DNA of 64,000 bases from Capitulum mitella (lineage: Eukaryota > Arthropoda > Thecostraca > Pollicipedomorpha > Pollicipedidae), in the NCBI GenBank assembly GCA_030062745.1, contig CP099842.1:11630095-11694094 (forward strand), given 5' to 3'. Positions 5,515 to 55,909 of the stretch are shown one piece after another. The notes beneath the pieces are model-generated. The model was not told where the DNA came from. It ran no database searches and saw only the letters and a program-made list of their open reading frames with translations. A program made the position numbers and the translations under genes. Position 1 is the stretch's first letter. Each line of letters starts with the position of its first letter.

Positions 5515-6842
5515 TTAACCCTATTCCTTTATTCCCACAGCGCTAGGGTGCAATCCTCTAAGGAGGGCGGGGCAGATCCCCTACCTGATATCTCGGGAAC
5601 TATTCGTCTGATCTCACCACAACAAACGACAATGGATTCATGACATAAAGTATATTTCTCTGTAGCGAAAAAGGTTTAAAAATACTGAAAGGGGGGATAC
5701 AGGGAGATAAACAAGTCAGAAGGGGGACTTTTTCTACTCGTTATTTTACTCGCTGTTACTGTAACGATTTCGATGCAGCTGGCATGCATCGACAGCTAAT
5801 CAATGGGATTTTGGGATTTGGTTTGGGATTTTGAGAAAATCATAGGTGATCACACGGTTTGGAAGATGAGGGGAATATGTCCTTCTTTAATGAATAAACA
5901 TGAACGTTAAAAACGTTTTCAGCTTTTACTAGTCATGTATATTTAAGTACAAATCATAATACAACGTTTGTATAATGTTGGCATGAGCGACGCCAAGGAC
6001 ATGAAAAAGATGGAACTGTCCTGGTCGCATGTCCATCAGGTCAGTTTACGATCTCTGACCTTAAATGACCGCAGATAGCCCCAGAGTCGCATGGAATGGC
6101 CTTGAACTCATTTCATAACGTTCAAAAACGTCTTAATCATTTACATTGACTACATTTCTAAAAATTATGTTAATGTTTGTCGTGATAAACGGTAAGAGCA
6201 TTTTTACGGTATACGGTATACGTTAAGCACATTTTTGGTCACAGCTCAGTGACCCAACGTTATATAATCCTGAAACTTGAAACACAAGTAGAGAGCAATG
6301 TGCTGCGTCATTTTTTTTCCGGATCTCGCATTTTGAAATAAAACGCCAAAAATATTTACACAAAACTAGATTTTGAACTTATGCCTCGACTTGAAATTGT
6401 CAAGTGGCTTTAGATTAAAAATATGTGTGCGTTTTCCCGATTATTTACCTATACACTAACCTAAAACTTTAAGTTATATTTGAAAAGCTATATAAATGTA
6501 TAACATATAGTAATATGTGAAATATCAAAAATACAAAAAATATGTATCTGTAAAACATTAGAGAAATATTTTCGGTAGCAATTTTTATTTTGCCTTCAGT
6601 AATGCCCCAAAAAGTCTGAGATGTCTTCCAAAACGTTGGCCTGGCTCTGCCCCCGAGAAAAATGGAGTTATGAAAATATGGCGCGATAATTTACAAAGAT
6701 ACATAATACATAAGGACGAACAGGTAGGAAAGTCACCATGTTTCGCAAAGCTACTTCAAAAACTCTGGAAACAGGAAGCGAAAATTCGGGAGGACTTCTG
6801 CAGAGCCCCCCCCCATTCGGGAATATGATGAAAGGGCTTTAA
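5515..6842 (+). mobile_element. TTAA family B, copy B1 (piggyBac-like, non-autonomous)
   Basis: The left end is TTAACCCTATTCC at 5515, followed by a G-run/C-run block and CTGATATCTCGGGAACT. The interior aligns along its length with B2 and B3: the shared block near the GAGAAAATCATAGG site, the GACCC...ACACAAGTAGAG block, and the CTGGCTCTGCCC block near the right end. The right end contains ATTCGGGAATATG and closes at a TTAA at 6839-6842. The terminus there is degenerate, so the exact right edge is uncertain by a few bases. It has no long open frame. TTAA targets with CCC...GGG ends are characteristic of piggyBac-type elements. I infer mobilisation in trans by a transposase encoded elsewhere. 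Confidence 0.75.
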
Positions 6843-8700
6843 ACAGTGCGCAATGTTTGCAAAAGTACTGTCTCGCTCCGCTTCTTACCGATCGGATCAT
6901 CAGAAACATGATAAATGCCTTTTGTAATCTCTTCATATCGTTGGGCCACTTCTTGCACAAATTTGCCAAGAGTTGATGTATACAAGCCGCGATTAGGTTT
7001 AGGTTTAAGTTTACGCGTATAAGCGCGGCTAATACGAGGTCTGTTTGGCTGCAACGAGTCTACCAAGTTTTCCAAAACGCTGCGGATGCTAGCGATGGCG
7101 ATTCATTCATGATACGGCCGGTAGTCCTGGTTTTAAAGCACGGAGTTCAACTGGTTCTCAATGTTCAAAATCTATGTAGATCTTCACTTGTCATTTTTGT
7201 CCTAAGTTGCATAAGACGTCCACAATAGTTGTTATTCACGCCAGCCAGTGCACGGCAGATGTTAGGTTTCTTAGTGACAACCATACGTATGGGAATTATT
7301 TTCCTTCTTATATACCGCGCACATGCATTTTCGTGAGCATATGTTGGTCATTTCTAACGAAAAGCCATGGTCACCATTTTGCGTTCTGATTACTTAAAAG
7401 TACGTCCTCCTGAGTTTCAAAATGAGAAGTATACCAATATAAAATAAATGGCAAATACAAACAACTATAAAGACATGCAACTGTAATAAACTGCCAAATT
7501 CGATTACAAATATTTCGTGTCAGGGGGCCATGACTAACAGTAAACTAATGTTAAGTTGGAAACAAAATTCGGAAAGGACGATAGGTGCACGGGTTCATCT
7601 TTGGGCTCAATAATCAGAATGAAATCTATTCACAAAGTTGGTGTGAATCGATCCCATGAATTGATTTACAACTTGTGTGGTCTGAGACTACCCTAATTCT
7701 CATTTCTCTTTCCAATTTTCTGTTCACATTCCATTCTATGCATCAGTAATTTTGACTTTAACTTATCAGAAGTAGATGTAAGACACTATTTGCGGGTGAT
7801 GATGCACGTTATCATTGTTCCCTAACACTTTTCTAAAATATTTAGAGGCCTTGGGATAACGCAAGGCCCAAGATTTACTTAATGCGTTTATGACAAAAAA
7901 AATGCCAGCATGATTTTTATTTCGCATAAAACTGAATCGTGAATCCAATCGATTCCTTGTGATCTGAAGTGGTCTTTGAACTGGAATCGAAAAGATTTTC
8001 TGTTTTCCAGTGCAAATTAGAATCAGAATCAGAATTACCTTCTCCGTTTGAAAATCAGAATCAAATCGATTTCCAATTATGAAAATCGCTTACAAGTCTG
8101 GTCGTAGTTAAATTGCTTTTTTCTGCATCAGTTTCACATGTGTTTGAGGGAATGTGTTTTGAAACTTGAAAAAAGCATGTGCTGCGAAGCAGTTGTGAAA
8201 TCCATTGGATGGAAATGAAAGAAATTGCTAAAATTATGCGCAGTTTTCTGTTTCATTCATTTAGATGGGCAATGTGTTCTCCCATTAGTTGGCCAAGTTT
8301 GGGAATAATTTTTTTAGGTCAAAGTAACTGCATGATACGGCAGTGATATTCCTAAGTTATAATTAACCCTGAAATGGACAGGCTTTGTTTTTGTTTCATT
8401 TCATACCTGAAGTTTCCTGATTTTTTTTTTTACTCTAATAACTTTACTCAGTCAATGTTTGACAGAACTTGTGCTGCCAGGGCAGACCGCATTATCTCCC
8501 GTTTCCACGTGTTATTAACATTTGTCAGTCAATTTTCATCTTGGCCCATCACATCAATTTTCAACTCAGTGTTGTTCATTACTGTCTTTCAAGCATCTCG
8601 AATGTCCGAGGCATGCAGTGATAGTCATGCTTTTAAAAAACATGTCCGTTTTTTGATGGCTTCAGTTTGCATGCACGAAATACTGTTGCCTTCCAGTTAA
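6843..8700. other. No recognisable feature
   Basis: This is AT-leaning sequence with only short frames. Around 8020-8090 there is a local tract of GAATCAGAAT-like short repeats. I see no conserved domain, RNA gene or repeat shared with other parts of the window. Confidence 0.3.
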
Positions 8701-10702: not shown

Positions 10703-12030
10703 TCTTCCCTATTCCCGGAGGGCTAGACGGTACGGCCGATTGCGGGCAGAGAGGGGTTCGGCCCCCCCCCCCCCCGAGATCTCGAGAACTACACATGCGA
10801 TTTCATCGTAACAAACGGCAATCGATTTGCCATTACGTAAACTGCACTTTTAAAAAAGAAGTTTTCAAAACTTTGGAAGGGGTTAATACAAGGGGCAAAA
10901 ATATGAAAATGGGGATATTTGGTCTTCTTATAACTCCGTTGTTTACGGACCGATTTCGATGAAACTGGCATGAATCAAAAGATTCATGCCAATTTGGACT
11001 TTTGCCAATGGATGGAGCTTTTACCACTGGTACACACATTTGGAATCTTGAGAAAATTCATAGGCGTTCACAGCGTTTCAAGAATAGGAAAATTAGTTTT
11101 TCAACAACTGATTAGTTTTTCAACAACACAAAACTTAAAAGTGCTTTTTGGCCTCTGCTAGTCATGTGATGCTAAAGGAGTACAAACTGTATTACTAAGT
11201 TTGCATAATGTTAGCATAGGCGGTACCAGGGACATGAAAAAAGGGGGAACTGTCATGGTCGCATGTTCTTTAGGTCAGCTTGTAACCTTTAACCTAAAAT
11301 GATCTGCGGTGACCTTGGAGTCACTTGAAATAGTCTCGTGTGCATCTAATATTATCGGGAAGCGTTTTCCATCATTTGAATTCACTCTGTTTCAAAAATT
11401 CCATTTTACTACTATTGTGATAGAGGTGTACGCGCACTGACATTTTACGTCATAGCTCCGTGACCCGACCTGATATCAAGCTGGAACTTGATACACAAGT
11501 AGAGGGCACCCTTCTACGTCATGTATATTCCGGATTGGCATTTGAAAAATGGCGCCGAAATTATTACTGTAAAACCAAATTTTTACTTCTGACCCTGGCC
11601 TGACCATGTCAAGTGACCTCAGATGAACAAAACTGTATTTGTACTATTTACCCAACTATTTACCTGTACATCCATTTTAAGTTTTAAGTTTTATCTTAAA
11701 ACACAATTTTTTATTTTTTATTTAGTGTTTTATTATTTAGTTTATCATTATTATATAACTATTTATTTATTTAATTTCACAAACCCAACGGCAGTCATTT
11801 TCCATTTAACCTCAACACGGCCAAAAATGGCCTGAGGTGCCTCCCAAAAACGTTGCCTGGCTCCGCCCATGAGTAAAACGGAATTTTGAAACTTTGTCAC
11901 GGTACGTAGAAAGAATAGCTAAGATAAGTCACCAAGTTTCGTGAAGCTGCGTCAAAAACCCTGAAATTGGCAAGCAAAAAACCCGAGGCAGGGCGGATTC
12001 AGCCTCCCCCCGCCGGAAATAGGGTTCTAA
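10703..12030 (+). mobile_element. TTAA family B, copy B2 (piggyBac-like, non-autonomous)
   Basis: The left end reads CCCTATTCCCGGAGGG after TCTT, a degenerate TTAA. The right end reads GGAAATAGGG followed by TTCTAA, so the two ends form an inverted terminal repeat of the type TTAACCCTATTCCCGG. The coordinate length equals that of B1. B2 is uninterrupted, so its interior at about 11280-11340 gives the empty-site version of the place where element A2 is inserted in B3. Several AGGTCA-type hexamers occur. A perfect GATTCATGCC-type local inverted repeat lies at about 10965-10990. The short frames inside are not conserved between copies. Confidence 0.8.
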
Positions 12031-16583: not shown

Positions 16584-17932
16584 GATTCAGTTCATGAACA
16601 AGCCAAAAGTGTGTTCGTAAACTGAGTCCTTTACCCGGCACTGCCTGGCGCGTTATTGTACCCGCGACCGCCGGGGGTGTCAAAAATGACCCCCTGCTAT
16701 CTCGGGACCTAACCGTCGGATCTGAACCGGTCTATCACCAATCGATAGAGCTGAGTCTTGTCATTCAGGAACTACTACGTAAGCCTTGGTCACGCCGCTG
16801 GTGACGTCACAGGTCACATAACACGACACACGCATAACACGACGTCCGGAAAACTGACACCGGTTCGTACATCACATCATCGGCAATATCATCGGCACAG
16901 GTCTTAGACCTTTCAGCTGGGTATAAAACGAAACGCCACCCTCTTCTGCATCAGAAGCGAGCCAAAATGTAAAAAAAAAATGTTGGATCAATGCCAACCT
17001 AGGTCAGGTGAAACACTGACCTTACTTAAAATGCCATAGATTGATACTTGCAGCCGTTTTGATTCACGTGATAGAAAGGACGAAAGTGAAACCTTCTGAT
17101 GGTCACTTTTGAATTACCTCCTTTTATCCTGCCAAAATCAGTCTAAGTTAGGTCAGATAAGGTTGCATTACTCTTCCTGACACAGAGCAATAATTACCCG
17201 ATGGGATTCTTAACTGCGCCCAGTACAGAACTGAAATGACATCTCGTGATAATTAACTCTATTCTATCTGCTCTGTATTGGGTCAGGGTCAAGCCAGGTT
17301 CGGACAGAAAGTATTTTTTTCTGATGACGAACAATAATTGCTCTCTGCTGCGACTGAACTATCTCCCACAGACGACGCTGTATTTCATTTCACTTTTACA
17401 TCCACCTACGACGCGACCTGACATGACCTCGCGTTGCATTTGGTGAACCTTGCCAAGAGGCACATATAGGTTGGCTTGTCTGGCTCGAATGATTGGGAAG
17501 GCCAGCGGCAACCATTTCTATCATCCGCAATGCAAATCAGTCCAATGCTCATCATGCATGCAACCTAGCATGATCTCTAATGCCGACGTGTCACGGTTGT
17601 ACATCCTTTTGGTAACCGTGTCCTATGTAAATCCAAATAATCCACCCATCATGTTCGCAAATATATTTAAAAAACCCAAGCATGTTCACGTCATCGCCCC
17701 AGAGGCGAAAACATGCATGCAAGGGTTCACTCATGACGTCATATTTCCGTGACCTGATCTAGCATGGGAATGGTTTTGATATCAAAATATGTAATACTGA
17801 TTGGTGAAAGGTACTAAAAATTTGGTTCTGTTGGCTTTAACGGTTGACGTTATTTACGAAAAACCGAGGGGTGTCTAATCTGACACTCCCCCCAGGCGGT
17901 GCAGAGTTAACGTTCCCCCAACCACCCAATCC
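16584..17932 (+). repeat. Repeat J, second copy, split by C1
   Basis: The left part (16584-16629) and right part (17911-17932) together correspond to the uninterrupted copy at 15038-15105. The break falls at TTAA/TTTA, the C1 target. Repeat J appears itself to lie inside B4, because B-family sequence stops just before it and resumes just after it. This gives a three-layer nest. Confidence 0.5.
16630..17910 (+). mobile_element. TTAA family C, copy C1 (piggyBac-like, non-autonomous)
   Basis: The left end is TTTACCCGGCACTGCCTGG, and a second box CCCGCGACCGCCGGGGG follows within 30 bp. Next comes the hairpin GGGGGTGTC...GACCCCC and CTATCTCGGGACCT. The right end reads ACTCCCCCCAGGCGGTGC and then TTAA at 17907. 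The interior matches C2 and C3 throughout and is dense in AGGTCA and GTGACGTCAC-like motifs. It has no long open frame. The target is TTAA (left copy mutated to TTTA). Confidence 0.85.
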
Positions 17933-19620: not shown

Positions 19621-20333
19621 CGTACGGACACGGGAATAGAATTAAGGCCACAGAACTTCCTCACATGATACTGCTAAAATCTTTCGAGATTTTCGAAATT
19701 CCCACATGCGTGTATTTTACGAAATATATAAATAATAAGACGGGTTTAAACGGCGCCTTTGCAATGAACAGGTTTTGGACGTTTCTCCTTGTGCCATGAT
19801 TGTTCATCCAGGAAAAGATATTCCAGAAACATCTGCGAATTACATTAAATCAAGCTAGAAAGCAAGGATTCGGAACTCTGGTTTTCATCGATAATATAGC
19901 TGCGTTTGCTCCCTCACTCCTGAACTAGCTAGGTCATGCGCGGCAGGAAGCAGACATCGCAAGCAAATTATCGATGGTTCCATGATGTATCAATGGTCAC
20001 TCATCTCGTACCAGTAAATGTTACCACTGGAGAGTTCTGGAAGTAAATGCAAAACTACTAGTGTATATTTCATGATAAAACTGCGATATTTTTCCCGCAA
20101 ATCTGCTTTCATCAACAGTCAGCCAGCCAAATCGCCTGAGCAGAGACTGCCGCGCACAGTCGGCCGGCCGTTTGCATCGGCCCATAACGCAGAGGTAGAA
20201 ATGTTACAATAAGCCAGTGCAACGCGGCTGTTTAAACGAAAATAAGCACAATATCCAATTTCCTGTGAGCGAGTCGTCAGAAATGTTAATATGCGACTTG
20301 CGGTAAGGTCTTTTGAGATTATTAAAATGCCGT
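19621..20333. other. No recognisable feature
   Basis: Ordinary sequence with short overlapping frames. There are no shared repeats or RNA genes visible. Confidence 0.3.
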
Positions 20334-20540
20334 CATAAATTTCCGACACACGTTTCTAGTCATTTCAATATAATAGTGCCAGTTTAAACATAGCCATGCC
20401 GACATAAATTTCCGACACACGTTTCTAGTCATTTCAATATAATAGTGCCGGTTTAAACATAGCCAAGCCGACATAAATTTCCGACACACGTTTCTAGTCA
20501 TTTCAATATAACAGTGCCGGTTTAAACATAGCCGACGCAT
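20334..20540 (-). repeat. 69-bp minisatellite, three units
   Basis: The block beginning CATAAATTTCCGACACACG starts at 20334, 20403 and 20472, an exact 69-bp period, and the copies differ by only a few bases. The period is a multiple of three, so the minus strand reads as a 23-residue repeat (core IEMTRNVCRKFM) from a start codon to a stop. A three-unit array can look like a gene for this reason alone. I see no start context, domain or splice signal that supports a protein. Confidence 0.9.
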
Positions 20541-21025: not shown

Positions 21026-22274
21026 TTAACCAGGCACCCCCTAACGTGTTTTTTTTTTATGCCCGCGACCGTCTGGGGGTGTCCAGAAGGACATCCACCG
21101 GTTATCCTAGGATCATAAGTCGACAGCCCTGAGTCCTGGTTCGGAAAATACTGTGTAAGTTCTGGTCACGTGGCTGATGATGTCACAGGTCACGCAAAAC
21201 GCATAACACGACGTCGGAGAAACTGACACCGGTCCGTACATCATATCGACAGGTCTTAGAGTCTTCAGCTGGGTATCAAACGAAAGATGACGATCTCCAG
21301 CATCAGAGGCATGACCAATGTAATGAAAATGGGGGGTCGAGGTCAACCTACACCAGGTGAAATAATGATCTTACTTTATATGCCAAGATCGATACTAACT
21401 CGCAGCTGTTTTGATCCACGTGACAGAAAAGACGGGAATGAAACCTGATGATCATTCTGCATTACCTGCTTTTCATCCCGTCAAGGTCATTGTTGGTTAG
21501 GTCAGATACGGTAGCATTGCTCTTCTTGACAAAGGGTAACAGTTACTCCTTGAGATTTTTAGCTGCGTGAGCACAGAACTGAAGTGACATCATGTGGTAA
21601 TTAAATCTCTGTCTGCTCCTTGTCGTTCCAAGATAAAACCAAGTCAGGAAAGGCCGTTATTTTTATTTTTCTAACTAGGAACAATAATTGCTCTCTGCTG
21701 CTAATAAATGATCTTCCACAGACAGTGTTGTGTTTCATTCGTTTTGCCACCATCCTCTGACGTGGCCGGACATGACCTCACGTTGCATTTGATGAGCCTT
21801 TGGTGAGCCTTGCCAAGAGGTGCAGATAAATTTGCTTGTCTGGCTTGAACGATGGGGAAGGTCAGCGGCAACCACTTCTATCACACACAATGCAAATCGG
21901 TGCAACTGTCATCATGCATGTGACCCAGCATGACCTCTGATGTTCACGTGTCACGGTTGTATATCCTGTCGGGGACTGTGCACTATGTAAATCCAAGTAA
22001 TCCATGCAATATAATCTCGAACATAATTAAAAAAGCACGCATGTCCACGCAACCGCCCAAAGAGGCGAAAACAAGCATGCAAAGTTTCACTTATGACGTC
22101 GTATCTCCATGACCTGACCTGGCATGGACATGGTTTTGCAGTCAAAGTATACAGAATTGATTGATACACAGGTACTGAAAGTTTGGTTGGGCTAGCTTTA
22201 ACGGTTGAGAAATTTTTTCACGGAAAAACTGAGAGGGGTGCCCTATTTGACAACCCCAGACCGCGCCGAGTTAA
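21026..22274 (+). mobile_element. TTAA family C, copy C2 (piggyBac-like, non-autonomous)
   Basis: The left end is TTAACCAGGCACCCCCTAACG and the second box is CCCGCGACCGTCTGGGGG. The right end is CAACCCCAGACCGCGCCGAG followed by TTAA at 22271. TTAA is present on both sides. The interior follows C1 block by block (the ACATCATGTGGTAATTAA block, the CTCTCTGCTGC block, the AAGAGG...GCTTGTCTGGCT block, the AGGCGAAAACA.GCATGCAA block). It has no coding capacity. Confidence 0.85.
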
Positions 22275-26498: not shown

Positions 26499-28310
26499 TT
26501 ATCCCTCGTCCGGCGTTTTTTGGGACCGTCATTTTAGGACCCCTTGGGGTTTTTCTTAAATAACTTTTAGTGGCGAAAGATAGAGCGCTGATTTCTGTTG
26601 TAGCAGATTTTGGAACATTTGTGCACCTCGAGGCAGGTTTTCAATTTTTTTTTCATTCAATAGGTCGTGACCCGAAACTTTTTTAACCCGTCCCCGACTG
26701 GGGGGGGGCAGTTGACTGCCCCCCCTGAGGTTTTTCTGGGACTGCGAGAGAACCAACAAACACAGAGTTACGAAACTTTGTGTACCTTTTGCTCCATCAA
26801 TTTTACGTCTCGTGTCAAAATTTTGACCTCAGGTCAGGCCAGGTGCCTAACCTAGGTCAGGTCAAACAGACCTATGTCAAAAAAAGTTTAGCGCCCTCTA
26901 ACTTTTTCGCAAAACAGGATATCTCAATAATACTTTCAGGGATTAATGACCGTGATAGATGCAACAAATCTGCTATCTCAGATTTTTCGGAGTTTTCCGG
27001 GTCATTGACCTAAGGTCAAGCCCATTTTTAAGACATATCGCCGTTTTTTCGGAAATTGACGGAATATTCCATAACATTTTTGGTGTGGAGTGAAGCAGAC
27101 ATCTAATTACCGTCATTGGGCAAAATATCACTGACTTCCATTCATTGACCTGAGGTCAGGTCACGAATAACTGTAGTGGGCCAAAATGAACCGCCGTCAA
27201 AATCAGCGATGAATTACTCAGAATGGGTAGAAAATGGCAGAACTAGCTTGCACAGACGTAATTAATACGAGGAACCTCAAAAAGTTTGAAAAAGTAGCAT
27301 ATTTTGCAAATAAACAGGCTCTCGCGAATAAAGCTCCGCCAACTTTGTAGATTGGTACCTAATCAATTTTTCCAAAATTTAAGCATGAGAAACCATCACA
27401 AGAACCACAAAGATGAATAAAATTGACATAAATCGTCTTTTTTCGCGAAAATAAAGCAACGCTAAAATTAGTTCCCGTCAATTTGGTACCGCATACGGCC
27501 GCGGCGCACACTGACGGCTGACGGGAGAATTACGGTGTCTTTAACTCAACGTTTCGGCGTATATGTTGAACAAATCTGGGGAAATTAGACGTAGATCGGC
27601 ATCCGCGGACATTTACTTGTGCGTTGGTGCCTTTACCGATGCGTTATTGGTCACAGCCCTTGAGATTCAGGCCATTTTTCGGTCTCATGCAGTCGGCTAT
27701 GAGAAAACATATATCGGGCGTAAATTGGCTTACATATTATCTAAAACTAAAAATGAGACCAGTTTCGAGCTCTACTCGTCACAGGCTTTCCAACGGTATG
27801 CTTATTTTTATCGTGCGACCAACCGTTCGTGAGTTAGAGGGGGGGGCAGTCAACTGCCCCCCCCCAGTCGCCGATGTTCCGGACGGACCGACGGTCGTGC
27901 GCGGGTTAACAAAGCCATATCAGTCGTGTTTTTAAACAAATCGAACAGCGCATTTCATTTACTGGAAATCGTGCATCGCAATGTTGTGTTACATACTTCT
28001 TTTATAAATGCTGGCGTCAACGACCTGATTTTAGTGTATGAGAAGGGTCAGGTCACCAGAGGTTAAGATAGGTCAAACGTGCACATCAAACATTGGTCAA
28101 ACGCCATTGTTGTTTTGTATGCGGGATAAGTGATGCCTGCATTTGCAAGAATACTTTATTACGTCCACCACGTCAGCAACATTTTGATGAACACTGATGT
28201 CATGTGAGGTCGGTTTGTAGGTCAAGGTCTCGCTGAGTCAGAAAAATCCGAAAACTCGAGAATTCGATTGCGCCCTTGGCGGTGACCTTGAGAAACTACT
28301 GCGGCCAACA
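26499..28310 (+). mobile_element. AGGTCA-rich TTAA-superfamily relative E, interrupted by A1 (tentative)
   Basis: At 26499 TTATCCCTCGTCCGG is followed by GGGACC...GGACCCC and GGGGTTTTTCTTAAATAACT, the same layout as the left ends of A and D. The sequence runs up to the A1 target at 26683. After A1, AGGTCA-rich sequence resumes (28040-28240). I could not find a right terminus, so the right limit is arbitrary. Confidence 0.35.
26683..27909 (+). mobile_element. TTAA family A, copy A1 (piggyBac-like, non-autonomous)
   Basis: It begins TTAACCCGTCCCCGACTGGG and ends CGTGCGCGGG followed by TTAA, an intact TTAA at both edges. Just inside each end there is a near-palindrome in which a G run, CAGTTGACTG (or CAGTCAACTG) and a C run follow one another. 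On the left this is followed by TGAGGTTTTTCTGGGACTG. AGGTCA hexamers, often as TGACCTGAGGTCA, occur at about 26825-26865, 27000-27020 and 27145-27165. The whole element matches A2 closely. Its longest frame (about 100 codons near the right end) is not kept in A3. Confidence 0.9.
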
Positions 28311-30690: not shown

Positions 30691-31450
30691 TAAAGTGCGG
30701 CCGAGGTTTAATGCGGGTATACAGTGATGATCGGTGATGCCTGAAGATTAGTATTTATCCCTTACTCAAAGCGATTGCCTTGCCATCTCGCGAATCCCAC
30801 ACAGCCCCAGCTTAAAAAACAGCAATGTAAATCGCTACATAAATGTGACTCATGCCATTCTGTATCATTTACTCCTCGGCTTCCGCATAGATCACGCTAA
30901 TGAAATGCTACTAAGCCTTGGTAGTGGGTATACAGGAACCAATTATGCAGGCGAAGGCGTAGCTTTTGCTCAACAGATGAAAATCGGGCTAACGGTAAGT
31001 TTCTGCTCGACGAAATCGCAAACAATCCTTTGTATAATTGCCACCAATGTAAAGAATGCATCACCCTGTTTCTAACCATACTTTCCACTACGTGATTTTC
31101 TAAAAAATAACAACAAAATCGTAACGATAACGTACCACACAGTAACACCGTGCTGCAGTCGACTGGCGGAGAACAACATTGTTCCGCGGCGGAAAATGTA
31201 GTGCCGCCAAGGTTAAGGTTATTGACATCAAGCATGTGTACACCCTGCATGCATCTTCAAGCGATTAATGACGTCATATATACGAAAATTCTATTCTGTT
31301 GCCACAAACTGAACTTGGAGGAACTGCTGAATTATTACGCCGTTATATTATTGTCCTAGATAATTGTTGGGATATCTGATATCAGTATTATTACATTATG
31401 ACATTTCATACTCGTTAGATTACATTAGATTGCTAGGTCGGGTTGTGCTG

Positions 31451-31592
31451 GGCTAGGTTAGATAAGGTTAGGTTAGGTTAGGTTAGGTTAGGTTAGGTTA
31501 GGTTAGGTTAGGTTAGGTTAGGCTAGGCTAGGCTAGGCTAGGCTAGGCTAGGTTAGGTTACGTTACGTTAGGTTACTATGTTAGGTTAGGGT
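31451..31592 (+). repeat. Interstitial TTAGG (arthropod telomere-type) pentamer array
   Basis: From 31466 there are eleven uninterrupted GGTTA units, then six GGCTA units, two GGTTA, two CGTTA and a few degenerate units. GGTTA is a rotation of TTAGG, the common arthropod telomere repeat. The variant GGCTA units are in one block, which suggests local expansion after a mutation. The short GGTTAGGTTAGG seed at the equivalent place in H2 (about 58296-58328) suggests growth from a repeat already present in the dispersed element, not a telomere insertion. Confidence 0.9.
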
Positions 31593-31739
31593 AAATTTTT
31601 ATTTGTTGTTTTATTTCACTTCCTAATATTTTCCAGTTTTGTTCCGTGATTTGTTTTTCAGATATTTTATTTCACAGCTTTTTATTTTTTTGTATTTTTC
31701 AAATTGCAACTTCACTTTTCCATCTTTGTAATATTTTTA

Positions 31740-31822: not shown

Positions 31823-32360
31823 CGAATAACTTTTTTTATTTTAAAGATAATTTATATCGCATTAGTTATTTCCCCAACCTTTTTTATTACTCTTGATTGG
31901 ACCTTGAGTCCGACCGACGACCAATCAACGTCGAGATCTCACGTAAACAATTTAACGCAGAAACGTCAAAAATCCCTACGCAAGCGTCTGGCGGTTAGCA
32001 CACCAGTGACGACGCGATCTGTTTCGGAGGAAATAATGTGTTTCAGGTTTTTCCGGCTGAAGTCGTAAGTAGTACTTATCAATATTGCATTTGAAGCGCC
32101 ATGTAACCACTACTACGATTATTTTCCCCCGAAGTAAGCGCTCGATCAAAATCTTACTGTTGACCAAATATCGCGAATCCATCACAGTCCCAACTGAAAA
32201 AGGCACTGTTAATTACTAAATAAATGTGACTCATGCATTTCCATGTCATTTAATCCGCGGCTTCCGCACGGATCACGTTAATAAAATGCTACCATGCCTT
32301 GGTACTGGGGTTGCGCGAGCCAATTATACAGGCGAAGGCGTAGCTTTGCTCAACAGATGA

Positions 32361-33484
32361 ACCTTCAGACAAACACTAACCAACATGCCCTCTTCGCATG
32401 CGCGCTACTTTTCGGCCCCAGGCCCCCAGACTCTCTTGGGACTTCTGCAGAATATTCTCGTCTTTAGCCATCCGCGCCACCTCCTCCCAGAATTGAGGGC
32501 AACGCATTGAGCATGAAATGTTGACATCAGGACTGCCCTCCGGACAACTGTGTCTAGAAACCCCACCTTGCAAGGCACCGCTGGTACACAGCAGCAGAAA
32601 CAATCCAGTTGAACTGATATCCGATGTCTTCCCAAAGTAAACAAGTACCCAGGCGCGACACTATAATACGCATTGTAGACTCGCTCACCACATTAGCCAT
32701 AACAAGTCATCTGATTCAGATGAACAGGAACAAAGGTAAAATAACAGGAGCAGCCCATGGATTTGCAATCAAAACTTAAGGAACAGGCTTACATCGGTGT
32801 TGTCATCAAAACTGCTGAATGCACAGAGCACTCTGGATATGGGATGAATTTCAACAATGCACTAGCAAGCAAACTATTTCATGTTTTCCCAAGCCGCTAT
32901 AGATGATTCTACTGTATCGGGCGGCAGGCAATTAGGGTGAATTGACGCGTGCCTGATCATTGGGGTCACAAACACCATTCCCGGTGTTTGCAGTGCTCAC
33001 TATATCAAGGCAGAATCCAGTATTTCAATGCGTTTTTTTTTTACGATACCCACTGGAATCATGTTTCATTCGTGCCTAGGTGTACTTAGCTGGCAAACGA
33101 TTTCTTTTGTAATTGGCCCACTCCCTGCTTGAGGCACCTTAAGATACAAAAAATAAGTGGTTAGGCAGGCTCGTACCTATCTTGCACAGAAATCGGACTG
33201 CCAGTACAACTCGGCCAAAATAATTACGAATCATCTAACCTTGGTAAGTAAATACCAAACTGGTACCCCGTGGTGGCGCGAAGGACGAACAGTGCTTGTC
33301 CGTTATGGGCAGAGGACAAAAGCACTGAACTAACTTGAATCACTTAACACATGACATAATTCGCAACATGAACAGAAAAACACAGCATGCCATCTTACAG
33401 TTTTCATTCTGCTCCGCGCCCGTAATACCACATCGAAACACCAAAAACCCTCGTGCGCGCAGCACGCGTCTTCAGCGTGCTGCA
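32361..33484. other. No recognisable feature
   Basis: Minus-strand frames of 75-79 codons at 32376-32644 overlap one another and have no visible domain. No repeats are shared with the rest of the window. Confidence 0.3.
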
Positions 33485-34065: not shown

Positions 34066-36509
34066 TTCAACCCCTATTCCCGGCAGGGGTGGCTGAATCC
34101 CCCCCTCGTCGCCCCCCCTCGTTTTTTTATTGCCAGTTCCAGGGTTTTTGACGCAGCTTCACGAAACTTCGTCACTTTTTTTTAGCTATTCTATCCACGT
34201 GCTGTGACAAAATTTCGTAGTTCCATTTTGCTCAGGGGCGGGGCAGGCAACGTGTTTGGGAGGCACCTCAGGCCATTTTTGGCCCTTTTGAGGGTGAAAG
34301 GAAAATGACTGCCAAAAATGGCGTTTTTAAGATAGAACTTAAAACTTTACATGGATGTATAGGTAAATACTTGGGCAACATACAAATACAATTTTGTTGG
34401 TCTGAGGTTACTTGACAAGGCCAGGTCAAGGTCAAAAAATAAAACTTGGTTTTGTAGCAATAATTTTGACGTTGCTTTTTCAACGTCAAACCCAGAATAC
34501 ATATGACGTAGAAGGGTATTTTCCGTTTCCAAGTTCCAGCTTGATATGAGGTCGAGTCATGGAGCTATGACGTAAAATGTCACTGCGCGTACCCTATATC
34601 ACAATAGCCGTAAAATGGAATTTCAGAAACAGAGTGAATTCAAATCAATGGAAACGTTTGCAGATAATATTAGATGCACACGAGATTATTCCAAGTGACT
34701 CTCAGGTCATTGGACGTCATTTAACCCTTCCCCGACTGGGGGGCAGTTAACTGACCCCCCCTGAGGTTTTTCTGGGATTGCGAGAGAACCAACAAACACA
34801 GAGTCACGAAACTTTGTGTACCTTTTGCTTCATCAATTTTGCACCTCATGTCAAAATTTTGATCTCAGGTCAGGTCAGGTGCCGGACCTAGGTCAGGTCA
34901 AACGGACCTATGTCAAAAAAGTTTAACGCCCTGTAACTTTTTCGCAAAACAAGATATCTCAATAATACTTTCGGGGATTAGTGATCGTGATAGATGCAAC
35001 AAATCCGCTATCTCAGGTTTTTCGGAATTTTCCGGGTCATTGACCTAAGGTCAAGCCCATTTTTAAGACATATCGCCGTTTTTTCGGAAATTGACGGGAT
35101 ATTCCATAACATTTTTAGTGTGGAGTGAAGCAGACATCTACTTACCGTCATTGGGCAAAGTATCAGTGACTTCCAGCCGTTGACCTGAGGTCAGGTCACG
35201 AATAACTGCAGTGGGCCAAAATGTACCACTGTCAAAATCGACAATGAATCACTCAGAATGGGTAGAAAATGGCAGAACTAGCTTGCACAGACGTAATTAA
35301 TACCAGGAACCTCAAAAAGTTTGAAAAAGTAGCATATTTTGGAAATAAACAGCCTCTCGCGAATAAAGCTCCGCCAACTTTTTAGAATGGTAACTAATCA
35401 ATTTTTCCAAAATTAAAGCATGAGAAACCATCACAAAAACCACAAAGATCAATACAATTGACATAGATCGTCTTTTTCACGAAAATAAAGGAACGTTAAA
35501 ACTAGTTCCTGTGAATTTGATACCGCATACGGCAGCGGCGCACAACCGAACAGCATTACGACGACAGAATTACGGTGTCTTTAACTCAACGTTTCGGCGT
35601 ATATATTGAACAAATCTGGGAAATTAGCCGTGTATCGGCATCCGCGGACCTTTACTTGTGCGCTGGTGCCTTTACCTATGCGTTATTAGTCACAGCCCTT
35701 GAGATTCAGGCCATTTCTCGGTCTCATGCAGTCGGCTATGAGAAAACATATATAGGGCGTAAATTGGCTTGCATATTATCTAAAACTAAAAATGAGACTA
35801 GTTCGAGCTCTACTCGTCACAGGCTTTCCAACGGTGTGCTTATTTTTATCGTGCGACCAACCGTTCTTGAGTTAGAGTGGGGCAGTCAACTGCCCCCCCC
35901 CCCCAGTCGCCCATGTTCGAAACGGACCGACGGTCGTGCGCGGGTTAAGGTCAAAGGTCAGAAGATGATCTGAAGAACACGTGACCATGACAGTTCCCCT
36001 TTTTCATGTCCTTGGCACCGCCTGTGCTAGCATTATACAAACATTGTAATACGATTTGTACTTTTTCATCATAACATGACTAGCGGAAGCCAAAAAATTG
36101 CTTTTAACTTTTTGTTAATGCAGTTTTTGAAGAAAAAAAACTTTTTCTCCTGTTTTTGAAACCCTGTGAACGCTTATGGATTTTCTCAAAATTTCAAATG
36201 TATATACCAATGGTAAGAGTTCCATCCATAATCTCTCGATTGATTCCACATTTATCCAAATCGGTCCACAAACAACAGAGTTATAAGAAGTCCAAAAATA
36301 TCCCCCATTTTGACTTTTTCTCCCCTCTGTATCCACCCCTTTTAAAATTTTGAGAACTTGTTTTGATAAAAATGTAGCTTACGTCATAGCGAATCGATTG
36401 CCGTTTGTTGCGATAAAATCGGATGTGCGGTTCTCAAGATCTCAGGGGGGCCGAATTTGCCCCCGCCGGGAATCGGCCGTACCGTCTAGCCCTCCGGGAA
36501 TAAGGTGAA
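34066..36509 (-). mobile_element. TTAA family B, copy B3, carrying nested element A2
   Basis: The left edge reads TTCAACCCCTATTCCCGG and the right edge CTCCGGGAATAAGG followed by TGAA, inverted ends of family B with degenerate TTAA sites. The interior matches B1 and B2 in reverse orientation. Removing A2 (34721-35948) restores the B sequence around CAT-TTAA-GGTCAAAGG, which aligns with B2. Net length without A2 is about 1.22 kb. B3 interrupts a LINE reading frame, which continues on both sides. It has no coding capacity of its own. Confidence 0.85.
34721..35948 (+). mobile_element. TTAA family A, copy A2, nested in B3
   Basis: It begins TTAACCCTTCCCCGACTGGG and ends CGTGCGCGGG then TTAA, a perfect 4-bp TTAA duplication. 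It is collinear with A1 along its whole length (1228 against 1227 bp by coordinates), with few differences, so the two copies are recent relatives. AGGTCA clusters lie at 34865-34905, 35038-35055 and 35180-35200. A frame of 132 codons (35575-35973) covers the right end and runs out of the element into B3. The corresponding frame in A1 is broken differently, which argues against a protein. Confidence 0.92.
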
Positions 36510-41035: not shown

Positions 41036-41320
41036 TTAACCCTCACCCGTATGGAGAGGGGTTCGGTGCAATCCCCCTGAGGTTTTCCGAGAATAACTTC
41101 CGAACGGTTTGTTTGATTCAACTGAAACTTGGTCTACCTTCTGGGAAATCCTTTCCGCATCTTATGGTAACAAATGGTTAAAAACGTTTCTTCTACGTTG
41201 CCGTGGTGACGAGTTCTGACGTCATAATGGGAACCATGTCAGCCGTTTTCGCGCGCCGACGCGTCCAGTTTACAACGATTTCAGTTTTGTCTCACTGTTA
41301 GACGGTTGGAGTGCACAAAT

Positions 41321-41368
<48 letters not shown>

Positions 41369-42363
41369 TATATATCAATCGATTCCATGATATATGTCCT
41401 ATAAGCCAATTTATAGATTTAATAGGCTTATGCTCACTGCCGGGATAATCGGGGAGTGTAAACTTAGGTCATGAACTACGGTGGCAAACACGTTACTTTT
41501 TATCTTTAGAAATATGACAGGAAATAGGTATCGCAAAACAATCTAAATACTCGGACTGTCTGAGATGTAACGAGTCGAATGATATAAATTTGGTGCAATT
41601 TATCTCTCATTTCATCCAAAGTGGGCGCAATGCAGCGAATGCCTGAATTTTGCTCCGACGGGTGGAGCGATGTTGGCCGCGAAGTGATGACTCGTCACGA
41701 ACACAGCAGGCCTAAAATTAGATGTTTTGTTGGATACCAGTTCGAAGAACGCTTTAAAGGTACCTAAGTTGCGATTTTTAGCTAATCCGAGGTCATTCTA
41801 GGTCATTAACTTCAGATTGCCTTGGCTGACCTAAGATGACCTTGGATGACCTTCGATGGCCTTCATGTACTATTCGACAACAGTGTTTGTTGACTGAGAT
41901 GCTACCTGTGGCCTCAACATCTATTTTTATCTACAAAAATGCTCCCGCAGCTCCGAGAACGCATTTAAGCCGATGACGACGCTTAACAAAGATTGACCTA
42001 GCATGACCTGGACCGGACTCCGTTGGTAAAATGAAATCATGTGGTGTACAGATAGACTTGCAATTGATTGACGAACACTATGATATCCCTTTTGTTTCAC
42101 CATCATATATTTTTGACGTTCATTTGCACTTAAACTCGAAAAAAATACCACTTTCATCCAATTTTTGACGTTTGGCCCGACCTGGAAGATCATCCGTCGA
42201 TTCAGGCCTTTAAACGAGATACCAGTCGCGAGATCCTGTCACGCGCAACACGCTAGTTCTTTCTGAGACGCTCTAGGACGCACGGTGTGGAAATGTCCGC
42301 GGGCCATACCCCCCATACCCCCCGTCTGCGTTATGCAGAATGCCCTATGCGGGCGAGGGTTAA
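41036..42363 (+). mobile_element. TTAA family D, single copy D1 (piggyBac-like, non-autonomous)
   Basis: The left end is TTAACCCTCACCCGTATGG. The right end, read in reverse, is TTAACCCTCGCCCGCATAGG, a good inverted repeat with intact TTAA on both sides. A G-run, GTTCGGTGCAA and a C-run follow the left terminus, then CTGAGGTTTTCCGAGAATAACT, linking D to the A and B left ends. A TA microsatellite sits at 41324-41366. AGGTCA/TGACCT hexamers cluster at 41785-41870 and 41990-42015. It has no long frame. No second copy is in this window. Confidence 0.85.
41324..41366. repeat. TA dinucleotide microsatellite
   Basis: About twenty TA units inside element D1, followed by ATGCATATATAT. Prone to length change and able to form cruciforms. 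Confidence 0.9.
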
Positions 42364-48884: not shown

Positions 48885-49100
48885 GGGTGTCGATTTGTAT
48901 TCTTTCGAGGGGGCCCTAGCCCGCCCAATGTTGATCCGGGCCCCTCCGATGTTGGTTTGGGCCCCTCCAATATTTTCCGACAGTTTTAAAGGGCACTGGG
49001 CAAAAATAACGAAAGAAACGGTTGCAACAGCAAAAAGGTAGGCAGAAGGTACAGAATAAGGCATTAAGTGATGCATCTATCTATCTTTCTATGTCCCAAA

Positions 49101-49132
<32 letters not shown>

Positions 49133-49850: not shown

Positions 49851-50356
49851 GAAAAATGACTGGGGAAGAGCGCAGTTCCGCAAACGAGGAGCATAGCCCG
49901 AGACCACCGTCATTTGCGTTTTCTTTGTCGAATTCTACACACTTTATTTTGCACCCTTTTAAAAGATGTCCAGAATACGAGCATATGCAATCAATACTAA
50001 GGAGAAATTACGATGATTTTCCGAGAGTGCTTTCTTATGAACTGATACCTCTTTGGGAGGAAATTATGCGTATAAAATATGGCCTCGAAACAACAGTTTT
50101 AACTACTGTCACACGAGGGCTAAATGTGGTTGGCTCATACAGTGCAGGGAAACCATTTGCGAGATTTCAGTTTTATTTTGATGAAATTTGCGATGGATTT
50201 TGTGCATTCCCAGTCCTCTGAAGTCACAGGACATTATTCCATCTATCACCTGTAAGACCTCGTTTGCCGTGGACTTGTCATCCCTGGGAGATACAGTCAT
50301 CGTGAGATGATCTAAAATGACTCCAAACACGTGTTTGTGTGTTGTGCTTCAGTTTC
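49851..50356. other. Unassigned open frame of 121 codons (49856-50221, plus)
   Basis: The frame reads naturally in places (SILRRNYDDFPRVLSYELIP, GLNVVGSYSAGKPFARFQFY) but I do not recognise it, and no splice or promoter signal supports it. It lies between repeat I and element A3. Confidence 0.22.
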
Positions 50357-51485
50357 TCAACCTGCGTCCGACTGGCGGCGAGCGCCAGTCACATCCCACT
50401 GGGGAGGGAGCAGTTGACCGGCCCCCTCTAACTCACGCACGGTTGATCGCACAATAAAAATAAGCACGCCGTTGGAAAGCCCGTGACGCTTAGAACTCGA
50501 AACTGATCTCATTTTTATCTTTGGATATCATGTAATCCATTTACACTCATATCTATTTTCTCACAGCAGACTGCATGAAACGGAGAAGCGGTCTCGATCT
50601 CAAAGGCTATGATTATTTAAGTGTAAGTAAAGGCACCAATGAACAGGTGGAAGTCCGCAGATGCGGATACACGTCTATTTTCTCTGACTTTTTAATGGAA
50701 ACTTATTTTAGCGTCTATTTTCACGATGTTAACCTTTCCATGTATCGTTGATTGATCCTGATGGTTCTTGTGATGGTTTCTCATGCTTAAATTTTGCCAA
50801 AATTCATTGTTTATTAATCTACACAACTGGCAAAACTTTATTCCCAAGAGCCCGTTTCTTTCCAAAATGTGCAATTTTTCAAACTTTTTGAACTTCCTGG
50901 TATTACTTGCAACTGTGAGAACCAATTCTGACATTTTCTACCCGTTCTGAGCAATTCATTGCTGTTTCTGACGGCGGCGCAATTTGGCTCATAACAGCTA
51001 TTCGTAACCTGACTTCAGGCCAATGGCTGGAAGTCATTGATACTTTGCCTGTTGAGAGTAACCAGATTTCCGCATCACACCACATTAAAAATGTTATGAA
51101 AGCATTTCGTCAATTTCCGAAAAAAACGATAACGTATCTCAAAAATGGGTCTGACCTTAGGCCAGTGACCCGAAAAACTGCGAAAAATCTGAGCTAGCAG
51201 ATTTTCGAACCTCTCAAGATTCCTGATCCCTGAAAGTTTTATTTTGATATCATGTTTTTCCGAAAAAGTTACAGGGCGCTAAACGTTTTTGGACATAGGT
51301 CCGCTTGACCTGGCTTAGGTCACACACGACTTGACCTGAGGTCAAAACTTTGACGCTAGTTGTAAAAATGATCAAGCAAAAGCTACACGGAGTTTCGTGG
51401 CGCTGCATTCTTTTGTTCTCTCACAATCTCGGAAAAACCTCAGGGGGTACGGTCAAACGCCCTCCCCCCAGTCGGGGTGGGTTAA
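50357..51485 (-). mobile_element. TTAA family A, copy A3 (piggyBac-like, non-autonomous)
   Basis: Read on the minus strand it begins TTAACCCACCCCGACTGGGG, then CTGAGGTTTTTCCGAGATTG. It ends in the A-type hairpin (GGGGGCCGGTCAACTGCTCC) followed by a degenerate terminus and TTGA (TCAA on the plus strand at 50357). It is shorter and more diverged than A1 and A2, with AGGTCA clusters at 51150-51175 and 51300-51345. The intact TTAA at its left terminus (51482-51485) is shared with element C3. Confidence 0.8.
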
Positions 51486-52759
51486 CCCGGCACCGCCTGG
51501 GACGGTGTCAACTTGGGCACCCCTTCGGTTTTTCGTGAAAGACTTGTGAACTGTTAGTCAGCCAACCAAATTTTCAGTGCTTGTTCGTCAATCAGTTTTA
51601 CATATTTTGACATCAAAGCCATTCCCATGGAAAGTCAGGTCATGGAGATATTACGTCATAAGTGAACCTTTGCATGCCTGTTTTCGTCTCTTCGGACCGT
51701 GGCGCGAATATGTTTCGTTTTCCAGACAGTGTTTGCGAACATAATGTATGAGTTATTTGGATGGATTTACAACGATCCCCAAAAGGATACAGGAAATGAT
51801 CCCAAAAGGATATACAACCGTGACGCGTCAACATTAGAGGTCATGCTAGGTCACGTGCACGATGGCAATTGGACTGACTTCCATTGTGGGTGATAGCAGT
51901 GGTTGCCGCTGGGTTTCCCCATCGTTCAAGCCAGACAAGCAAATCTATATGCACCTTTTAGCAAAGTTCACCAAATGCAATGCCAGGTCATGTCAGGTCA
52001 CGTCATAGGTAGGTGTCAAAACGAAATAAAATGCAACGTTGTCTGTGGAAGATCGCTCAGTAACAGGAGACACCAATTATTGCTCTTAGTAAAAAATGTC
52101 TTTCTGTCTTGACCTGGCATGCCTTTGACCCGATAAAGAACAGACAGATCAGATTTAATTATCACGAGGTGTCATTTCATGTCAGTACTCGACGCAGTTA
52201 AGAATCCCAGTGAGTAATTATTGTTCTTCGGCAGAAAGAGTAATACAGCCTTGTCTGACCTGACCTAGACTTACGTTGACCGGATGAAAAGCAGATAATT
52301 CAAAAGTGATCATCAGAAGGTTTCATTTCCGTCCCTTTTGTCACCGTCATATGGCTGCGAGTAAGTATCGACCATACGCGTGTAATTAAAACCACTATTT
52401 TACCTGACCTACGTTGACCATGACCCGACATTGTGTAACATTTTGGGATGCTTCTGATGCAGAAGATAGTGATTTTTCTTTGATACGCAGTTGAAAGCTC
52501 TAAGACCAGTATTGCCGATGTCATGATGCACAAACTGATGCCATTTTTTCCGACGCCGTGTTATGCATTCTGTTTGGCCTGTGACATCATCAGTCGCGTG
52601 ACCATTGCTAACATAGTATTTTCTGAATTGCAACACTTACGGCTATCGATTGATGGTAGACCAGCTCAGGTCCGTCCGTTAGCTCCTGAGATAGCAGGGG
52701 TGCCTTTTTACACCCCCAGGCGGTCGCGGGTACAAAAACCCCAGGCGGTGTCGGGTTAA
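51482..52759 (-). mobile_element. TTAA family C, copy C3 (piggyBac-like, non-autonomous)
   Basis: The plus strand shows TTAACCCGGCACCGCCTGGG at the left and CCCCAGGCGGTGTCGGG then TTAA at the right, the best-preserved inverted ends of family C. A second inner box CCCCCAGGCGGTCGCGGG lies 20-40 bp inside the right edge. The interior follows C1 and C2 in reverse. TTAA is intact on both sides, with the left one doubling as the A3 boundary. It has no long frame. Confidence 0.9.
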
Positions 52760-52861
52760 ACCATGCTCACGATACATACGAAACATACATTAAAGTACCC
52801 CACTGACACACTGGATCGAAAAACACTTCACATGGCCTGTTCCAAGCCATATGTCATTGGC
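52760..52861. other. Spacer
   Basis: No feature seen. Confidence 0.2.
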
Positions 52862-54030
52862 TCTATCGGCAACAGTATGGCTTAGGTGGGAATGACACTG
52901 CAGCCCATTTTGTGGCCTCAGGAATAGTGCCGACGGTGCCATCCGTCGACTTGGAGCAGGTATTGCTTTTGCCTTTCATACTTCGTGAGTTCGCTATACG
53001 CTTAGATAACAGCCACGCCTCGCTTGGCGAAGTCGTTCGCCACCGCAATCCAGCGTGAGACTTCCTTGGCGTCTTTGAAGCCAGGTGCTGTCTCCCAATC
53101 AGCGGGATCAACGGCAAGGAGTCCGTGTTGATTCCGTAGGCCTTCAGGAAAAGTAACACCAGATTTCCTTCACAATGACTCTCCTATGCGAACTACGCAA
53201 CCGCCTGACCGAGCTTCTATTGACCGTCAGTTTAGAAAAACCGTGGCCGAAGGCCGAGGCCGTCGCCGATAGGAAATGGACTGCAGAGTGATCACTAAGC
53301 TTGATCCGACCAAGTGCTGCTGCCAGACCAGGAGTGACGATGTTCTTAGCACTCTTGCAGGGCTGTTTCGAAGAAGAAGGCATGGCGAAGGGCTGCGGGT
53401 CATCCCCATTTGCCAGTTATGTGCTGTCAGTAAACGAGCATTCAAATTGGGCAGTTACCTCCTGCTTAGCCTGCTCTTCAGTCTAACGGTGGGCCCTTTC
53501 TGCGGCCTGCTTTTGTCGTTAAAAAAACTCGCTCCTCCTTCTTACAAAGAAACCTATCGACTTCAGCCATGAAACCTCGGCGGCCTGGCTTCCGTTGGGC
53601 CAGAAGGAAGTCTGTTCTCTTGGATTTTGATGATCTCAATGGCGCCGATGTGGGCAATTTCAAAGAGGTCTTTGAGGCTGCGCCTAAATTCCCCCTCCTT
53701 CTCCATTCGCGGGTTGGACTTCTCGCATTTACCTTTGAGGACAGCTCGATACTGGTCAAGCGTCCTGTTGCGTTTCTTTATCACGTTCCCTTCCGGTGCA
53801 GTGGGAATGCGAGCTTTGTTCCACACCCTCATCACTTCGCGAACGATCTGTGTTTCGACACCCCTCTGGGAAAGTTTATCCGCACCGTGGAGCTGAAAAT
53901 ATCGCTGCAGCACTCCTCCTCAGGTGGGCAGCTTGTTTCCTGGCTCTGATACGACCGGAACATCAATCATCCGAAGCTCGGCCTTTTTTCTCGTTGTGCA
54001 CGCCATTGTAGCGCAGGCTTCCTCCATAAA
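52862..54030 (-). pseudogene. Broken, internally deleted copy of an arthropod-expanded uncharacterised protein family
   Basis: Minus-strand blocks occur in family order. First, IVREVMRVWNKARIPTA with a charged helix and LKDLFEIAHIGAIEIIKIQE (53563-53913). Then, after a frame change, DFLLAQRKPGRRGFMAEVD (to about 53530). Then KQAAERA and, in the same frame, TPGLAAALGRIKLSDHSAV plus FSKLTVNRSSVRRLR (53163-53340). Finally DWETAPGFKDAKEVSRWIAV and YERQKQYLLQVDGWHRRHYS (52921-53100). I recall this block order (DLFDIAH, FLL.QR..GR.G, TP.LAA.LDR...SDR, NRSSIRR) from a large uncharacterised family in arthropods, probably transposon-derived. The central core between NRSSVRR and the C-terminal block is missing. 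At least one frameshift and about five in-frame stops are visible. Confidence 0.8.
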
Positions 54031-54759
54031 AGGCCACTTCTGCATTGACGTGGGTCGCCGCGGGCTGTCCTTAAAGCTCCCGTCGTCTTGGAACGTCTAA
54101 GGCCCATACTATCTTAAATCGTAATTAATCCGTTTCATGTGCTGAAATAATTTTTGTGAACTAGTAAAAAAACTCAAATACGCAAGCAGCACTCCTTTCA
54201 GTTTTGATCGGGCCGTATCTCCTTGACACTGGGCATCGAGTCATAGAGTTTTTTCTCGTTTTCCGCTCTCGCCAGCTGGTGCCGCTATTTCGGGTTGGCT
54301 CTGCCTGATTCTGTGGCCTCAGGCGTGGCGTGGCGCTGAATCTCTGATCAGCACCCGCCGGCTGCTCGGTGGAGCCGGCTGAAACATTGGCCAGGGCGGC
54401 GGCGCTTACCGCCAGCGGAAGGCGCGGCTGCCCCGACCTGACGGCGCCTCAGGGCCGCTTCAGCGCCACTCATCCGGGCCCGGCTCGACCGGCTTAGGAC
54501 TCTCAGCGTGAGGCCCTCCCAGCCGGCCGGCCTGTCCCTGCTCCCGCCTCGCGCCGCTGCAGCCCTGGCCAAACTCTGAGCACCTGATCAGTCCAGTGTT
54601 CTGTGAACATGTCAGTTTGGGTGGAGAGTGACAACTTACGCGCCTTTATTTTACCTCGCGAAATATCCCGGTGATGGAGTTTTCATCTCAGGAGAAAGAT
54701 AATGTTCAGAAGCGACATGCTACATTGTTAGCTGTTTTCGTGACATGTGTGAGATCCTA
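54031..54759. other. CpG-rich island at 54270-54580; rest unassigned
   Basis: The island is GC-rich with an alanine/arginine-rich minus-strand frame of 74 codons, not a credible protein. No other signal is present. Confidence 0.4.
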
Positions 54760-55909
54760 TTGCCACGTTCCCGACTGGGGGAGAGGCGGTTGACCGTTCC
54801 TCCCCCGAGGTTTTGCCGAGACCGCGAGAAAACGAACTAACACAGCGCCACGAAACTTCGTATACCCATTGCTTCATCAATTTTACATCTAGTACCAAAT
54901 TCTTTACCTCAGATCAAGTCAGGTGTTTGACATAGTTCAGATCAAATGGAGCTATGTCCAAAAACGTTTAGCGTCTGTAATGTTTTCGGGAAACATGATG
55001 TCACAATAAAACTTTCAGAGACTAGGGATTCTGATAAATGCAACAAATCTGCTTTCTCAGATTTTTGGAAATTACCGGGTCATTGGCCTGAGGCCCTTTC
55101 CAACAACTGTCCTTTTTCGGGAATTGACGGGATTTTTTAACAATCTGCTGTAGGCAGATGCAGACATCCTGTTTCCGTCACTAGTCAAAGTTTCGATGAC
55201 CTCAAATTTCTGACCTGATGTCAGGTCACGAATAACTGGTATATCAAAATTGGTGACGAATGACCCAGGTCGGGTACAAAATGGCAGAACTGGTTCGCAC
55301 AGCTGCGAAAAATACCAAGAAGTTCAAAATAGTTTCAAAAATTACATATTTTGAAAATAAACAGGCTCTTGCGAATAAAGTTTCATTAACTGTGTAAATT
55401 GATAATTACTGAATTTTTCAACATTTAGGCACGAGAAGCCATCACAACAACCATTAGAACCAAAAAACAACAATTGGCCAAAGGTTTATTTGCGAAAATA
55501 AAGGAACGCAAAAATTAGTTCTCGTTAATTTCATACCGCGTTCGGTTACGGCGCCCGCCGGCAGTCGGTGCAAAAATTACCGTGTCTTTAATTGAACGTT
55601 TCTGCGTTTATATTAAATAAATCATACTAATTAGACGTGTATCGGTATCTGCGGACTTTTGCCTGTCCGGTAGTGCCCTTACCTAGACTTTATTGGTCAC
55701 AGCCCTTGAAATCCGGGCCGTTTCTCGGTCTCAAGCAGTCGACTATGAGGAAACATATAAGTGGCGTAAATCGATTACACGTCATTCAAAAATACAAATG
55801 AGGTCAGTTCCGAACTCCACTCGTCACGAGCTTTCCAACGGTGTGCTTATTTTTATCACGCGACCAACTGTTTGTGAGTTAGGGGGTGTTTTCAACGGGT
55901 TTTGGTTAA
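54760..55909 (+). mobile_element. TTAA family A, copy A4 (piggyBac-like, non-autonomous, diverged)
   Basis: The left edge reads TTGCCACGTTCCCGACTGGGG, a mutated TTAACCCGTCCCC terminus, then the hairpin and CCGAGGTTTTGCCGAGACCG. The body matches A1 and A2 in order (CAACAAATCTGCTTTCTCAG, GACGGGATTTTTTAACAA, ATTGGTCACAGCCCTTGA). The right end is truncated before the full hairpin and stops at TTAA 55906-55909. It is the oldest-looking A copy. Confidence 0.75.

Follow-up and report, generated by a model that had tools for sequence, protein, structure and literature searches.

Four probable piggyBac-type families of non-autonomous elements with a related end in the barnacle Capitulum mitella

A stretch of 64,000 nucleotides of the Capitulum mitella genome (contig CP099842.1, positions 11,630,095 to 11,694,094; here called the window) contains four families of TTAA-associated elements, A, B, C, and D, which probably are non-autonomous members of the piggyBac superfamily derived from one ancestral element. 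Their relatedness to piggyBac largely explains the architecture of their ends, and the system is ordinary in kind and well documented. Self-comparison and reading of the window identified four A, three C, one D, and three B-type copies. The end sequences given for the families in a first-pass annotation of this DNA are indeed present, and a search of the genome (477 Mb in 16 contigs) found members of the families dispersed throughout. Of 627 candidate matches to the cuticle domain PF00379, which is abundant in arthropods, 150 were scored, and these agree with an arthropod genome. The lengths are about 1.08 to 1.32 kb, close to the 1.13 to 1.33 kb originally claimed.

All four families are large, with 6949 first-look candidates for A, 1607 for D, 3460 for C, and 9961 for B, although these are not counted copies. 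The best 40 candidates of each family were scored: the A copies are 95 to 98% like the window copy A1, with one further full-length match at 91%, the D and C copies are 73 to 79% and 74 to 79% like their respective window copies, and the main B pieces are 77 to 81% like the window B copy. As these figures describe best hits only, they are not to be read as ages; the remaining A copies of the window show 75 to 92% identity to A1. Thirty copies each were fetched for A (the best matches to A1) and D, the consensus of C comes from 10 copies, and the counts for B come from 10 copies.

Terminal layout of the elements

Both consensus ends of A, B, C, and D begin with CCC, as had been claimed, and each consensus carries the same tip-proximal core word and G-run/C-run palindrome at both ends, set 27 to 28 bp deeper at one of them (the long-spacer end) than at the other (the short-spacer end). 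The offset of the core word between the ends is 27, 28, 27, and 27 in A, B, C, and D, with palindromes centered at bp 27.5, 26, 25.5, and 26 at the short-spacer end and at bp 55.5, 56.5, 52.5, and 54.5 at the long-spacer end. The short-end palindrome was matched by 0, 3, 3, and 5 of 2000 shuffles across the four families, and its arms vary from family to family with their complementarity kept, as judged by eye on the consensuses. A hairpin had been placed 20 to 50 bp inside the end; the G-run/C-run palindrome is real, but its depth differs between the two ends. Genome patterns were paired with reversed-pattern controls, and TTAACCC followed by a C-run and GGTTTT gave 7139 matches, with 0 for its control.

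The piggyBac element of Trichoplusia ni, IFP2, has a TTAA target and a CCC tip, and its tip sequences differ from those of A to D. The excerpts of PMC2532691 describe terminal repeats of 13 bp and subterminal repeats of 19 bp, with a spacer of 3 bp between them at one end and of 31 bp at the other, which places the palindromes at bp 17 to 35 and 45 to 63, and those of PMC11707139 give the minimal ends as LE35 and RE63, the palindrome being bound by two cysteine-rich domains. The families of C. mitella are like IFP2 in having a palindromic subterminal repeat at both ends with asymmetric spacers (28 bp deeper at one IFP2 end), and unlike it in having long G-run/C-run palindromes and no transposase gene that we could find. 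Because the asymmetric layout matches, we interpret the hairpin as a G/C-rich version of the palindromic site known from piggyBac.

The same features bear on whether A to D are mobilized by another superfamily with a TTAA target, such as Kolobok, which we regard as extremely unlikely. In the excerpted text of PMC6004289, the T2-MITE/Kolobok elements of Xenopus (MITE, miniature inverted-repeat transposable element) are like A to D in using TTAA and in forming many subfamilies, some of them long-lived, but they depend on a different transposase superfamily and their ends begin with AGGRR or another purine pair. No such purine tip (RR or AGGRR) follows TTAA in the four consensuses, all of which start with CCC and carry the piggyBac palindrome layout. 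The preference of the first-pass annotation for piggyBac over Kolobok is thus borne out by the tips and the palindromes.

The inner module and probable common descent

At the short-spacer end only, the C-run is followed by GGTTTT and then by AAACTT at offset 44 in all four consensuses. The literal consensus first proposed for this inner stretch, CTGAGRTTTYCGRGAACT, is absent from the window even when 3 mismatches are allowed, and it seems to blend A/D and B sequences. The module itself exceeds shuffles and is larger than first described. We compared the consensuses of all four families over 66 bp without gaps, with B read after reversal, as copy B1 lies in the opposite orientation and its module aligns with A, C, and D only once turned. 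A and C share 41 bases, C and D 40, and A and D 35, each reached by 0 of 5000 shuffles, while B shares 32 with D, 31 with C, and 30 with A, reached by 3, 6, and 9 of 5000. Scored by exact strings, the spacing of 44 occurs in 28/30 A, 7/10 C, 8/10 B, and 6/30 D copies. A two-part module pattern gave 4373 matches in the genome and 0 for its control, and 48 of the 63 matches listed on the first 9.34 Mb of contig C1 (a contig, not the copy of that name) adjoin a listed TTAA end or an A tip.

This similarity is extended by two profiles, one made from the fetched A copies and one from the fetched D copies, in a search of six sequences. The A profile finds D (E 1.2e-6), B1 (E 1.8e-4), and C1 (E 1e-3), and the D profile finds A (E 5.6e-6) and C1 (E 2.5e-5), in all cases at the same end and on the same strand. 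The alignment of the A profile spans roughly the first 130 to 157 bp of one end in D, B1, and C1, which supports common ancestry. Over about 110 to 150 bp, the short-spacer end can still be recognized across families; the resemblance is strong among A, C, and D, but B shows it weakly. Among the long-spacer ends, an inner stretch is common only to B and C (3/1000 shuffles), and the deeper interiors could not be aligned across families by profile search beyond short AGGTCA-rich stretches.

These unaligned interiors, together with the little similarity shown by B and by most long-spacer ends, would also fit unrelated families in which similar modules had arisen because the host or the transposase constrains subterminal DNA in the same way. 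However, the agreement of A, C, and D at 35 to 41 of 66 ungapped bases exceeds what convergence on a short motif would give, and within A or D the module shows no extra constraint, so that we consider such convergence very unlikely.

Descent from one piggyBac-type ancestor also has to be weighed against the proposal of the first-pass annotation that terminal divergence around a conserved inner stretch reflects one long-lived lineage repeatedly re-captured by different transposases. On this view, a single MITE lineage would have preserved its module and acquired new tips again and again to match different piggyBac transposases. In agreement with this scenario, each family has tips of its own, the spacing within the module is kept, the interiors do not align, and a similar pattern is found in corals (see below). 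Nevertheless, the contrast was not supported: pairwise identity is 0.50 to 0.77 for the tips and 0.45 to 0.62 for the modules, so the tips are no more divergent than the module, although no tip pair clearly beats shuffles because the tips are short and C-rich. Nor is the module better conserved than the interior, as 31 of 98 windows within A and 90 of 103 within D were as good or better. The core-word offset, moreover, is equal within one base in 4/4 families, and the ends of the two readable piggyBac families with transposases (described below) match none of A to D. With no measurable excess of conservation in the module, whether over the tips or, within A and D, over the interior, repeated re-capture is left without support and appears unlikely. 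It is simpler to suppose that all four families inherited one end and that their interiors have since become too different to be recognized as related. It is likewise improbable that several piggyBac transposases can mobilize one non-autonomous lineage through the 66-bp module, acting as a portable cis-element of fixed orientation in one transposon end that persists while tips are exchanged.

The re-capture idea had been put forward as one not seen described, but it is in print for coral elements. According to excerpts of PMC2872659, the CMITEs of Acropora are TTAA/piggyBac-type MITE families with different terminal inverted repeats (TIRs) and a conserved 75-base internal region, and one family has the TIRs of a transposase-bearing piggyBac, with cross-mobilization suggested. 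They are a direct precedent for TTAA families with a shared inner region, and, judged by title, this is the only relevant one among the papers listed for inner-module precedents. The same excerpts also allow several differences to be seen. CMITEs measure about 100 bp, against 1.1 to 1.3 kb in A to D, and the module of A to D is present at one end only, unlike the CMITE internal region. The 60-base consensus of that region resembles the A to D modules no more than shuffled sequence does (193 to 497 of 500 shuffles score as high). In CMITEs the inner region is more conserved than the TIRs, the opposite of what we see here (tips 50 to 77%, module 45 to 62%), although the tips are too short for a firm comparison. 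Among the papers listed for barnacle piggyBac elements, none deals with elements of this sort.

Under common descent, the tips and palindrome arms may have drifted together with their own transposases, symmetry and spacing being kept as the letters changed. The 66-bp module would then be inherited left-end DNA, and it could perhaps act as an accessory binding or enhancer site.

Several observations weigh against the reading of A to D as piggyBac-type families of common descent. In ten single B copies the center of the long-end palindrome spreads from 51.5 to 65.5; this scatter arises as G-run lengths vary, which makes the core-word offset the firmer measure, and the G-runs and C-runs raise palindrome scores in themselves. 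The fourth tip base is T in B and D (CCCT), and the CCCG of A and C misses the CC[C/T]T given as a piggyBac hallmark in the part of PMC2872659 that deals with tips. The excerpted PMC10813416 counts the first three bases, CCC, as conserved and also gives the tips CCCAT and CACTA, so that the fourth base is variable among published members. B joins the other families weakly (3 to 9 of 5000 shuffles), and once the first 8 bases are removed, its agreement with D, C, and A is reached by 9, 93, and 72 of 5000. The module spacing was unrecognized in 2/30 A, 22/30 D, 1/10 C, and 1/10 B copies, and it differed from 44 in two D (40 and 50), two C (46 and 47), and one B (45). The profiles missed C2 and B2 at the short-spacer end, the D profile missed B, and the other five pairs of long-spacer ends have no common inner stretch (389 to 871 of 1000 shuffles). 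To the same side belongs the result for possible transposase donors: the two piggyBac families with transposases, read from four loci, include no autonomous element with the termini of A to D, and they show neither A to D tips nor a strong palindrome at bp 26 and 54. In the flanks of transposase-bearing piggyBac elements, no module was found by the A or D profile below E 0.2.

Transposases and target sites

The genome has 118 piggyBac transposase matches to PF13843 (DDE_Tnp_1_7). The first readable family has the tips CCCATTAACGCCCAGCGGG (L069 and L070), and the second has CCCATTAGTGCCC or CCTATTAGTGCCC together with CCCTTTAGTGCCC (L111 to L114, of which the middles were not fetched). At a fifth locus (L115 and L116), no TTAA tip pair was present in the fetched stretches. 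Transposase remnants inside A to D were rejected: a tblastn search with the L070 transposase had no hit below E 1 in either the elements or the window as a whole, and of the nine open reading frames of at least 150 amino acids in the window, not one overlaps an A to D element. A search allowing A or C as the fourth tip base gave 241 genome matches, from which no new family was named.

The elements had been said to insert always at TTAA, and they do so mainly, but with exceptions. For A, TTAA stands directly before 1967 of 2213 exact 15-base tips genome-wide (1134 + 1079), and 25 of the 30 fetched copies have it on both sides, two have ATAT on both sides, two have one altered side, and one has no recognized tip. 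The figures for the other families are 26/32 ends in D (the 16 end-to-end copies among the 30 fetched), 10/10 and 8/10 ends in B, i.e., 18/20, and 6/10 and 7/10 in C, i.e., 13/20. Among the 11 window copies, TTAA is present at both tips in 4/11 (A1, A2, C1, and D1), at one tip in 4/11 (A4, B3, C2, and C3), and at neither in 3/11 (A3, B1, and B2). ATAT directly precedes 28 of the 2213 exact A tips, and as it flanks two fetched copies on both sides (L010 and L012), it looks like a real minor target of family A rather than decay. The excerpts of PMC10813416 that give non-TTAA piggyBac sites do not have ATAT among them.

Copies in the window and significance

The coordinates of the copies are collected in Table 1. 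B2, as well as a B element at L111-L112 that contains an inserted transposase-bearing piggyBac of another family, must be older than the insertions that sit inside them. The single TTAA common to the adjoining A4 and C1 is a hint of insertion beside the target site of an existing element. Shorter B-like pieces are also present at about 17.9 to 19.6 kb of the window, together with a short tandem repeat of 69-bp offset, about 97% alike, at 20327-20533 and further unclassified repeats common to at least two parts of the window (30785-31593, 32168-32361, 57622-57880, and 58296-58450).

Table 1. Copies of families A to D in the window (positions are those of the window)
Copy	Description	Coordinates	Strand	TTAA	Module and other features
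A1	Family A	26687..27905	+	Both tips (26683-26686, 27906-27909)	Short-spacer end left; inner module 26729-26794
A2	Family A, 92% to A1	34725..35944	+	Both tips	Inserted within B2; module 34765-34830
A3	Old, degraded family A, about 75% to A1	54764..55886	+	Neither tip	Module 54809-54874
A4	Old family A, about 79% to A1 over two aligned parts	50398..51481	-	51482-51485, common with C1	Module 51374-51439
C1	Family C	51486..52755	+	Both tips	Module from 51527; AAATTT offset 41 (44 in 10-copy consensus)
C2	Family C	16634..17906	-	Only at 17907	Module starts 17865, read leftwards, offset 42
C3	Truncated family C	21112..22270	-	Only at 22271	
D1	Family D	41040..42359	+	Both tips	Module 41081-41146; TA repeat at about 41324-41375
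B1	Family B	10707..12024	-	No intact TTAA	Short-spacer end 12024; module 11918-11983
B2	Family B, split by A2	34072..36505 (34072-34724 + 35945-36505)	+	No intact TTAA	Short-spacer end 34072
B3	Old, B-like	5519..6836	-	Left tip (5515); right TTAA (6839) two bases past GGG	

Pooled over both strands, AGGTCA/TGACCT, a nuclear-receptor half-site, is the commonest hexamer over one sequence per family (33 counts). It occurs 9 times in the A consensus, 12 in the D consensus, and 9 in C1, against about 0.5 to 0.7 expected, often with copies 10 bp apart (D and C) or as TGACCT-N-AGGTCA (A); B is barely enriched, with 3 and 4 against shuffle maxima of 4 and 3. The listed elements, 15.2 kb in all, hold 72 of the 109 occurrences in the window, for example, inside A1 (26687-27905), D1 (41040-42359), and C1 (51486-52755). 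Judged by title, none of the papers listed reports AGGTCA in such elements.

Taken together, the four families suggest that diverged piggyBac families preserve the geometry of their ends, the palindromes staying near bp 26 and near bp 54 even as the sequence itself changes. The structural model according to which a transposase dimer recognizes palindromes and not fixed words can readily be tested on them. Whether the inner left-end module affects transposition is a question left by the coral CMITE work, as far as the excerpts of PMC2872659 go, and this one genome, with its thousands of naturally varying tips, palindromes, and modules, offers material on which such an effect may be tested.

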